Assembly (NCBI GenBank): GCA_027459705.1
Contig: DAIDHM010000140.1
Span: forward strand, 1-56,141
Direction of reading: 5' to 3'
From: Ktedonobacteria bacterium
Lineage (GTDB): Bacteria > Chloroflexota > Ktedonobacteria > Ktedonobacterales > JACDGC01
Length of the DNA: 56,141 bases
Program-made: the position numbers and the translations under genes
In this document: positions 2,225 to 42,902 of the stretch, in pieces
How the letters are laid out: each line of letters begins with the position of its first letter
How positions within the stretch are numbered: position 1 is the stretch's first letter
Notes under the pieces: generated by a model
Told to the model about the DNA's origin: nothing
Seen by the model: only the letters and a program-made list of their open reading frames with translations
Databases searched by the model: none

Positions 2225-3892
2225 TCAGGGGTGATTGGGCGATGATGGCCTGGCAGATTGGTGACTCGCGACCGCTCCTGGCGGCTGTTGGTTGGCGTAT
2301 TTCAAATGCAGACCATGTTGGGTCTTCTCCCAATAGAACGGCTTGAAGATCAACTGATAGACTGCGATCATCGCGGCAATACTCATCATGGCCCAATAGA
2401 TCGGAATCGTTAACGACCAGAGCATCAACCCATATTGCTCGCGCTTCATACAAGCGATGATATACATGTAGATATACAGGAAGTTGCCAAAAATCAAGCA
2501 GACCAGCCCGGCGTAAAATATCGGCGCCGGATAGAGCGTATGGTACACAGGCTCGACAATTGGTCGCAGGGTCGGACTGAGCGCGCTGAAAACATAGAGC
2601 GCCAGCAACAGCCACATCAGTGGATTGACGATGAAGGTCGCGGGCGTCCCCCCAATCACCACCTGTAAGCCTACCAGTTCGCGCAGACGTTTGGGATGGA
2701 GGAAGCGCCAGGGTCGGCGCATATGCACCAGATACGTCTGCATATAGCCCTTGATCCAGCGGGACCGCTGGCGGATCCAGTTTCGGGGTCGCGAATTGGC
2801 CTCTTCATAGGTTGTGGAGTCCAACATCGCCGTATGCAGACGCAGCGTTGAGAGCCGCAGACCCAGGTCGCAGTCCTCAGTCACATTGAAAGGATCCCAG
2901 GCGCCAAGTTTGCGAAGGATGGCCGCGCGGAAATGGTTCGAGGTCCCGCCCAGCGGCAAGCTTAACATCTCGGCTTGCAAGCCAGGAAGGATCAGATCGA
3001 ACCAGAGGGAATATTCCAAAGTAAACCAGCGCGTCAGGACATTCTGGCGCGGATTATAAAAATTGAGCTTGGCCTGCACACAGGCCAGGTCTGGCCCATG
3101 ATTGGCGAAGGTCAGGATCGCCTTCTTCAGTTGCTTGGGTTCCGGAATATCCTCAGCGTCATAGATTACCACATACTCGCCGGTCGAACGCAGCAGCCCA
3201 TAGTTACAAGCGCGCGGTTTGGTGCGCGGCTCACCATCAGGGATCGTGACGATCTCGAAATGCGGTGGCAAGCGCATTGCCTGGATGGCATCGCGGGTTG
3301 CATGGTCGTCCACCTCAGTCAGAAACATAATCTGCAACCGGTCGGCGGGATAGTCCAGCGCAACCATTGCCTGCACAAATTGCTTGACCACTTCTGGCTC
3401 TTTGTAGAGCGGACAGAGGACGGTATAGCGCGGCCAATTGCGATTGCCCAAGCGCGCGAGCACCTTATCCCCGATATGTTCTTCTGGCCGGGTGTTCAAG
3501 GCGCGCAACGTGAGTTGAAAGGTGTGGATCAGATTCGCCAGGTAAATGAACGTAATCGCGCCAATGGTGCTGACCAGCGTCTGGGCGGGGAAAAATAATA
3601 GCCCGGCCGTCCAGATCAGGACGATCGCCGTCATAGTGATCATCTGGCCGACGGTGACTGTCTGGACCGCGGAGTTTTCGCGACGCAATGGCGCAAATGG
3701 ATAGACCTGTTTGTGGTCAACGCTGATAGGTTGGGCCGCGCGTTCGGCGTATTGCTCGATCGCTTTCAAGTTGGCGCGCTCGTCCACCATGTCGGCTTCC
3801 TGATTGAGCCAGGTCGCGTAGTAATAGACCTCCTCGTCGAGCGCGGCGGCGGGAGTCAGCGTTTTATCCTTGCCCGGGGCGGATGATGCCAT
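2225..3892 (-). CDS. Membrane glycosyltransferase family 2 (cellulose/hyaluronan synthase-like)
   Basis: A protein of 555 residues. Two N-terminal helices (about 82-125) precede a cytoplasmic GT-A domain, and three or four helices follow to the C-terminus. The full processive GT2 motif set is visible: EVDD at 193-196, DAED at 245-248, TED at 338-340 and QRSRW at 375-379 (the QxxRW motif). Such enzymes polymerise a beta-glycan from a nucleotide sugar and often pass the chain through their own membrane helices. The polymer here is unknown. The ATG at 3892 has a GGAGGG site 9 bases upstream. A near-consensus promoter at 4048-4076 faces it, giving a leader of about 150 bases. The GT-C-type gene downstream is probably co-transcribed. 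Confidence 0.85.
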   Translation of the reverse strand: MASSAPGKDKTLTPAAALDEEVYYYATWLNQEADMVDERANLKAIEQYAERAAQPISVDHKQVYPFAPLRRENSAVQTVTVGQMITMTAIVLIWTAGLLFFPAQTLVSTIGAITFIYLANLIHTFQLTLRALNTRPEEHIGDKVLARLGNRNWPRYTVLCPLYKEPEVVKQFVQAMVALDYPADRLQIMFLTEVDDHATRDAIQAMRLPPHFEIVTIPDGEPRTKPRACNYGLLRSTGEYVVIYDAEDIPEPKQLKKAILTFANHGPDLACVQAKLNFYNPRQNVLTRWFTLEYSLWFDLILPGLQAEMLSLPLGGTSNHFRAAILRKLGAWDPFNVTEDCDLGLRLSTLRLHTAMLDSTTYEEANSRPRNWIRQRSRWIKGYMQTYLVHMRRPWRFLHPKRLRELVGLQVVIGGTPATFIVNPLMWLLLALYVFSALSPTLRPIVEPVYHTLYPAPIFYAGLVCLIFGNFLYIYMYIIACMKREQYGLMLWSLTIPIYWAMMSIAAMIAVYQLIFKPFYWEKTQHGLHLKYANQQPPGAVASHQSARPSSPNHP

Positions 3893-4047
3893 GCAGGTAC
3901 TCCCTCCAGCGGCCTTGCGTACTAAGGATTGAGATATGTGTGCGCCGCGTTGTCCTGGTGCTGAGGTCCAATCGCTCGTTATGCCGAACAGGCGGACCGT
4001 ATGGAGCCTGTTGAAGAAACCATGCTATCGCTTGTATGAATGGCAGC

Positions 4048-4076
4048 ATTGTACCTGAATTCGCGTGGAGAGTCAA
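4048..4076 (-). promoter_or_regulatory. Sigma70-type promoter for the glycosyltransferase pair
   Basis: On the minus strand TTGACT (4076-4071), a 17-base spacer and TACAAT (4053-4048). This is the strongest signal in the 488-base divergent gap 3893-4380. I found no equally good promoter for the plus-strand gene at 4381, only a TTGACC at 4178-4183 without a matching -10 box. Confidence 0.65.
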
Positions 4077-4380
4077 TCGCGGCTGACTTCCGCTCACCGC
4101 GATGGTCAGTGGCGCCCATTTCAGGGAACTCGACCATCTCGCTGAAAGAATCTGGGCTTTTGGCCATAGCCCGCGTGTTGACCCTCGCTTACCCTAATGT
4201 AGGCAGGGCAGCGAGATGCATCTCCTGGTGGGATCTGTATGGCCTTATGCTCAGATCATCGGCGCGCGCGCGATCCGCGAGCAGCCCACGAGGTGTGTTG
4301 ACGAAGGCATAAGTGGGCGGCGAACTGACCTTCGCTAGCCATTTCGCGCGGCGTGATCGCGCGTATTCTCAGGTGGAAAA

Positions 4381-38327: not shown

Positions 38328-38475
38328 GAGTTTGCCGAGTTATTTGTAATAACTTATTGAGGATGCGGAAATGTGCTGCGAGAGCGGATAATCCACTTTC
38401 AGCCATCTGAGAGTTTGCGATAGCAATAATTGCGATCAATACACATATCAGCTTCTAAGCCAAGCAGATGTAGGG

Positions 38476-38571
38476 CAGAGGCGTATGGGAGTCGAACCCA
38501 TCGGCGAACGCGCGCAGCGCCCGCCCAACCGTTTTGAAGACGGCGAAGGCCACCCGGCCCCAGACACCTCC
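38476..38571 (-). tRNA. selC: tRNA-Sec (UCA anticodon)
   Basis: On the minus strand, 96 bases. The acceptor stem has 8 bp (GGAGGTGT with ACGCCTCT, two wobbles), then two bases, then a 6-bp D stem GGGGCC/GGCCTT with a four-base GGGT loop. The 5-bp anticodon stem holds the loop CTTCAAA with anticodon TCA (38537-38535). A long variable arm and a T arm ATGGG-TTCGACT-CCCAT follow. The 8+5 acceptor/T helix and 6-bp D stem are diagnostic of bacterial tRNA-Sec. The discriminator is G and CCA is not encoded. It provides selenocysteine for UGA, and a candidate selenoprotein gene lies at 42183-42746. Confidence 0.95.
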
Positions 38572-42136: not shown

Positions 42137-42171
42137 GGAGACCGTGCGTCCATGCTGGATGCACGGTCTCC
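42137..42171 (-). terminator. Terminator hairpin after the AhpD-like selenoprotein gene
   Basis: A 15-bp stem with one wobble (42137-42151 and 42157-42171) and a five-base loop, 11 bases past the stop codon. Confidence 0.65.
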
Positions 42172-42182
42172 ACTCGAGGATC

Positions 42183-42746
42183 TCAATCCAGTTCGATGCG
42201 CAGTTCACAGACCTCGGGACTGAGCTTCCAGGTATCGATCAACTTGTCGAATCCATTGCAAACTGCGATTAACACGCCGATCTCAACAATCTCCCCTTCG
42301 CTCAGGTACTGGCGTAATTGCGTATAATACTCTGCCGACACCTGTTTCTCATCGCGAGTGACCTGTTCGGCGTAGCGCAACGCAGCTTGCTCTTGCGCGC
42401 TGAATGCGTCGGTCTCATAGTCCACCAGCATCTGTTGAATGCGGTCTTCAGTTAATCCAGCCTGCCTCGCCGAGGCAGATCGTACGTTCCCTCAATATCC
42501 ACAACCATACATGGCCGCGATTTTGATGCGTACCAATTCTTTCAATTGTTTGTCCAACGTGCCACCATCGACACAGGCATTCCAGAGAGCAAAGAAGCCC
42601 TTGAGAATATCTGGGCGATGCCCAAGAATGCGGATCAGGTTGGAATTCGGGGCGCCATTTGCGTCGGCCTGCTGAATGAGCAGCTGGCAATCTGCATCCA
42701 TCGTGGTGATGTCGACAAACTCGATCTCCGAATTGATCTTGGCCAT
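42183..42746 (-). CDS. AhpD/carboxymuconolactone decarboxylase-like selenoprotein with in-frame UGA (CxxU)
   Basis: The frame runs from the ATG at 42746 (GGGAGG four bases upstream) to 42183, interrupted only by TGA at 42494-42492. Read as selenocysteine it gives 187 residues with Sec85 in CGYU, then GNVRSASARQAGLTEDRI. The first half ends LKELVRIKIAAMYGCGY, the standard helix before the AhpD CxxC. The UGA thus sits exactly at the second, redox-active cysteine. The rest continues the family fold without a break (DAFSAQEQAALRYAEQVT, GEIVEIGVLIAVCNGFDKL). Family members are thiol peroxidases or disulfide-linked reductases. A hairpin (42462-42478) follows the UGA at a SECIS-like distance and a tRNA-Sec gene lies 4 kb away. 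A nonsense pseudogene is the alternative. Confidence 0.85.
42462..42478 (-). promoter_or_regulatory. Candidate bacterial SECIS element
   Basis: On the minus strand a perfect 7-bp stem CTGCCTC/GAGGCAG closes a GGC loop. The loop begins 21 bases after the UGA. Bacterial SECIS elements lie inside the coding region just after UGA, with a G at the start of the apical loop at a similar distance, for SelB binding. Confidence 0.6.
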
Positions 42747-42902
42747 GTGACCTCCCGCGGCAACTCAAGTAGGGCACCACCCATGTTGTGTGGTACGGCC
42801 CACTCATCAGTGTACCTGAGAAATTGTCGCACCGATCTGTCGAGGTCTCTGAAAAATGGCAGTGGTCATTGTGCGCCAGCACCACTCACCTGCCATGCAA
42901 CC

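Follow-up and report, generated by a model that had tools for sequence, protein, structure and literature searches.

The question raised by this locus is whether two short open reading frames on the minus strand, separated by a stop codon, are to be read as they stand or as a single gene coding for a selenoprotein. The window, i.e., the whole stretch of 56,141 nucleotides that was analysed, comes from a Ktedonobacteria bacterium, and an earlier note on it had described the two ORFs as lying in one frame with nothing but a TGA between them. This was borne out. The ORFs 42492–42746 and 42183–42431 share the frame, a single TGA (42494–42492) separates them, and when this codon is read through the minus strand from 42746 to 42183 gives one CMD/AhpD-like protein of 187 residues (MAKINSEIEF...MYGCGY-TGA-GNVRSASARQAGL...CELRIELD-TGA), in which the TGA is codon 85 of 187, within the motif C82-G-Y-U85 (Table 1).

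The gene stands alone. Its neighbors, named from their translations, are a sepF-like gene upstream and gpsA downstream, each 140–160 bp away, and none of the nearest neighbor genes hints at the substrate of the AhpD-like protein. The inverted repeat found directly after the final stop is a possible terminator, without a T run; as read on the minus strand (42137–42171), this 11-bp repeat obtained no terminator score.

Table 1. Coordinates of the putative selenoprotein gene and of associated features in the window.
Feature	Position	Strand	Basis
Putative AhpD/CMD-like selenoprotein gene, 187 codons + stop	42183..42746	-	ATG 42746-42744; final TGA stop 42185-42183; PF02627 CMD E 2.3e-16; homology across TGA
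In-frame TGA, codon 85, probably read as selenocysteine (CGYU)	42492..42494	-	Homologue column U (56) or C (43) only
Cys82 codon, CxxU partner of putative Sec85	42501..42503	-	Cys in 95/99 homologues
Shine-Dalgarno-like GGGAGG, few bases 5' of ATG	42751..42756	-	Sequence reading
Candidate SECIS-like hairpin: stem CUGCCUC / GAGGCAG, GGC loop, one outer U-G pair	42461..42479	-	Position + covariation in 30 sequences
Perfect 11-bp inverted repeat GGAGACCGTGC...GCACGGTCTCC directly 3' of stop	42137..42171	-	Sequence reading
tRNA-Sec gene, anticodon TCA	38474..38571	-	ARAGORN; Rfam RF01852, 60.2 bits

Coding sequence on both sides of the TGA

The homology of the family continues past the UGA, as had been claimed from the sequence alone. 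Using a profile made only from the 43 homologues that carry Cys, residues 1–84 by themselves scored 63.9 bits (E 8e-22) and residues 86–187 by themselves 103.9 bits (E 5e-34), and the two other frames past the TGA gave no match to the same profile. The GC3 was similar in both halves, 0.62 and 0.63. We compared the column of residue 85 among 99 homologues, drawn from Chloroflexota, Acidobacteriota, Actinomycetota, Bacillota and Pseudomonadota plus one Myxococcota record, and found Sec (counted as an in-frame TGA) in 56 and Cys in 43, with no other residue. This is the answer that the earlier note had anticipated for a selenoprotein. The in-frame UGA stands where homologues have Cys, as in bacterial UGA-Sec selenoproteins, and it takes the second position of the CxxC of a CMD/AhpD-like domain (CGYU), as in the CxxU proteins of COG2128; both the PF02627 match and the alignment agree with this placement. 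Judging from the sequence comparisons, the TGA at codon 85 is very probably decoded as selenocysteine and the two ORFs would be one gene, not two. That the product is a CMD/AhpD-like selenoprotein with Sec at residue 85 we regard, on computational grounds, as highly probable, a confidence that concerns the identity of the protein and excludes its substrate. We also went through the window from end to end for further ORFs that continue across a TGA and have a hairpin; this gave 22 additional candidates, all judged by eye to be due to chance.

The hairpin after the UGA and the selenocysteine machinery

In the mRNA the UGA is followed by GGGAACGUACGAU and then by CUGCCUC-GGC-GAGGCAG, a hairpin that begins 13 nt past the UGA, with a 7-bp stem and a loop starting at +21. 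The relatives have the stem at +14 to +20 and +24 to +30 and the loop at +21, with a few of them in which a simple hairpin scan preferred other, longer hairpins. Over 30 sequences, 97.1% of the pair cells were standard pairs and 39 cells were altered on both sides, with compensatory changes at six of the seven stem pairs. The covariation score was 0.558 against 0.225 (sd 0.024) in shuffles, none of 500 shuffles being as high, and it did not exceed 0.199 when the pairing partners were slid, a comparison that somewhat favors the unslid version because the window sequence and its relatives had themselves served to define the structure. When the 12 codons past the UGA were resampled synonymously, a stem of at least seven Watson–Crick pairs at the right distance and with a G in the loop appeared in 50 of 200,000 trials (0.025%); in the window itself such a stem follows 9 of the 1,957 TGA triplets. 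The folding energy of the 56 nt around the UGA was no better than that of shuffles (z -0.12), and Rfam gave no meaningful match at the hairpin. The case for a SECIS is thus made by position and covariation, and not by folding energy. With its place soon after the UGA and a G in the apical loop, as in known selenoprotein mRNAs, this hairpin is a candidate SECIS.

The genome (4.6 Mb, 95% complete, a draft of 245 contigs) contains the rest of what a selenoprotein requires. The tRNA-Sec gene lies about 3.6 kb from the selenoprotein gene, which agrees with its earlier description as nearby in a Chloroflexota-like genome. The presence of selA, selB and selD, proposed there as a check, was confirmed, all of them above cut-off: selA on contig C37 (513 bits), selB on contig C122 (306 bits, 682 aa) and selD on contig C147 (342 bits).

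Some other genes of this genome also carry an in-frame TGA. SelD (L040, contig C147) has its own within SCAGUAAK and is probably itself a selenoprotein. A second CMD/AhpD-like selenoprotein (L002, positions 8–514 of the minus strand of contig C240) has the motif CRYU and, equally far from its TGA, a hairpin with a GGC loop; it is 28% identical to the window protein and belongs to a different branch of the tree. On the minus strand of contig C142 (L133, 1282–1884) there is a peroxiredoxin-like protein of 200 residues with the in-frame TGA in FGUMHC (UxxC), likely a further redox selenoprotein. In all, four genes or more of this genome probably make use of selenocysteine. Seven AhpC-TSA proteins of the genome score above cut-off. 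On contig C37 an AhpC-TSA gene is found less than 1 kb from selA on the opposite strand (1507–1962, plus, and 2922–4253, minus; L132 and L039).

Two explanations that do without selenocysteine have to be weighed against these data. The TGA is one base away from TGT and TGC and the genome is a draft in 245 contigs, a situation in which a broken gene or a sequencing error could have turned a Cys codon into a nonsense codon, with the second half decaying. However, many relatives have TGA at the identical codon, the hairpin covaries, the conservation of the family and a similar GC3 are kept in both halves and the full Sec machinery is present in the genome, so that we consider this explanation extremely improbable. 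Since the frame is open however the TGA is read, decoding as Trp or Cys, through an altered code or leaky read-through, would give a full-length protein too, but this is even less probable. The neighboring gpsA, nadK and sepF genes end in TGA, and therefore TGA is a normal stop here. Moreover, the Sec tRNA with its TCA anticodon and the sel genes are present, a SECIS-like hairpin follows the TGA, and the homologues have Cys at this position, never Trp. We retain selenocysteine insertion as the explanation, in which SelB with Sec-tRNA-Sec would bind the hairpin just past the UGA of codon 85 in the mRNA and insert Sec, and translation would go on instead of ending.

Fold, active site and probable role

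The protein belongs to the CMD family PF02627 (60 bits against a cut-off of 23, E 2.3e-16) and is just above the cut-off of the AhpD core domain TIGR00778 (30 against 27.8 bits). The best curated NCBIfam model was NF053654 GroundWater_YciW, "YciW-related (seleno)protein," matched over residues 8–168 with 89.4 bits (E 2e-25), far under its cut-off of 310; the peroxidase-related enzyme model TIGR01926 gave 62.8 bits, also under its cut-off of 81.8. The gene scores under the cut-offs of these best full-length naming models, and annotation will therefore probably split or drop it, as had been suspected. The sequence matches in the PDB were PA0269, Atu0492 and the debrominase Bmp8. An AlphaFold2 model, built with Cys at residue 85 from a 60-row alignment, had a mean pLDDT of 92.1 and a pTM of 0.87 and predicts an AhpD-like helical bundle, with matches to the AhpD-like structures 2prr, 6ohj, 2ijc and others (E about 1e-6 to 1e-5). 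PA0269 is a good fold match as well, and the AhpD of M. tuberculosis a weak one over its whole length.

PA0269 is a weak H2O2 reductase in which the AhpD-like relay is formed by Glu36, Cys48, Tyr50, Cys51 and His55 (PMC3141380). The aligned positions in the window protein are Glu70, Cys82, Tyr84, Sec85 and Arg89. It shares with PA0269 and M. tuberculosis AhpD the active-site helix pair and the positions of Glu, the first Cys, Tyr/His and the second Cys, but both of them have Cys for Sec, and their His55 and His137 correspond to Arg89. The five-residue relay (Glu, Cys, Tyr/His, Cys, His) is therefore incomplete, with R89 replacing the His, and AhpD-type peroxidase activity is not assured. Arg89 is the mark of a large sub-group and not a defect, because 46 of the 99 homologues have Arg in this column (about half have His).

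The UGA position had been called that of the resolving cysteine, a name that probably does not fit. The residue that bonds with AhpC in M. tuberculosis AhpD is the second Cys, Cys133, with Cys130 partly buried (PMC6626918), and Sec85 would therefore be at the attacking position. In Burkholderia thailandensis the first Cys matters more, indicating that the roles are not fixed (PMC6626918). In the mechanism that we propose, Sec85 probably attacks a peroxide or an oxidised protein partner, e.g., a peroxiredoxin, and Cys82 would then resolve the selenenyl-sulfide; according to the alignment, Glu70 and Tyr84 would occupy the AhpD proton-relay places. A role in thiol-dependent peroxide defence or peroxiredoxin reduction is the one that we favor, with modest confidence.

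A different view would place the selenoprotein outside peroxide defence, in reductive dehalogenation, the model being Bmp8, a debrominase of the CMD fold. The Bmp8 structures (6ohi/6ohj) come out near the top by fold (TM 0.81, the fold being shared over the whole length), Bmp8 is also among the best matches by sequence (E 8.7e-10), and deiodinases use Sec in similar chemistry. On the other hand, the identity of Bmp8 to the window protein is just 18–20%, it has Cys only and is named for a different chemistry, PA0269 is closer by sequence and other AhpD-like proteins are about equal by fold, and no halogen-related genes were seen by eye among the nearest neighbors. All this makes the dehalogenase very unlikely. 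Only slightly less doubtful is a broader version, a deep and separate branch of CMD selenoproteins, with Arg for the relay His and a C-terminal Cys-acidic motif, that would catalyze a non-AhpD reaction, e.g., selenol-driven reductive dehalogenation. Peroxide defence or peroxiredoxin reduction stays as our preferred role.

Relatives and place within a known family

The earlier note had supposed that few CxxU members were known, which does not hold. AhpD-like CxxU selenoproteins were first described in 2005 from 27 Sargasso Sea sequences (PMC1088965), AhpD-like (COG2128) was among the bacterial selenoprotein families of 2006 (PMC1794560), 299 AhpD-like selenoproteins were found in the Global Ocean Sampling data in 2008 (PMC2398784) and a listing of 2026 again includes the family, with TIGR01926 and CxxU (PMC13188914). 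They are also abundant in the same order of Chloroflexota, where the best match carried an in-frame TGA in 39 of 41 genomes. In the open-access literature we found no paper on the AhpD-like selenoprotein family in Ktedonobacteria. Like the members of this family (COG2128/YciW; TIGR01926), the window protein has a CMD/AhpD-like domain with Sec second in the CxxC and a SECIS-like hairpin right past the UGA, and Cys homologues are widespread; it differs by being under the TIGR01926 cut-off, by its identity of 39% or less and by the Arg where about half have His. To NF053654, a (seleno)protein model by name, it is a distant relative and not a member. The window protein adds a genuine though unremarkable member to a selenoprotein family that has been known since 2005, and the new part is small: a diverged branch (39% identity at most), with Arg for the relay His and scores under the two best full-length naming models.

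An alignment-based scan for relatives gave 80 loci; a scan of genome contigs for the single protein, by strict peptide patterns, had retrieved none. The closest one found is a Cys form from Amorphus (L054, 39% identity), all others being at or below this value, and from its own family only distant matches of 26–27% were found. Screening 400 Chloroflexota genomes, and 396 from the phylum to which another relative (L062) belongs, yielded no orthologue nearer than these. The homologue tree needs 10 switches between Sec and Cys, at least eight of them forced by well-supported branches, indicating that both residues have been swapped for each other repeatedly. The window protein sits in it on a long branch with weak support (81/70). 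By eye, the window protein, L054 and L062 all have, near the C-terminus, a Cys with an acidic residue directly after it (EVCEL, QACDV and EACDL), and L062 also has the N-terminal GAPNS stretch of the window protein. On these motifs the three are perhaps one small sub-family.

Both this order and other Chloroflexota are very rich in CMD selenoproteins (L010–L035, L043–L046 and others). All eight relatives that were scanned score too low for the curated full-length (seleno)protein and peroxidase-related models. The significance of the finding is mainly for annotation: members with an in-frame TGA are the rule in this Chloroflexota order, and many CMD selenoproteins of Chloroflexota may be mis-annotated. 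Automatic calling of such selenoproteins would be aided by the hairpin pattern that the order shares, with its stem at +14 and its loop at +21.
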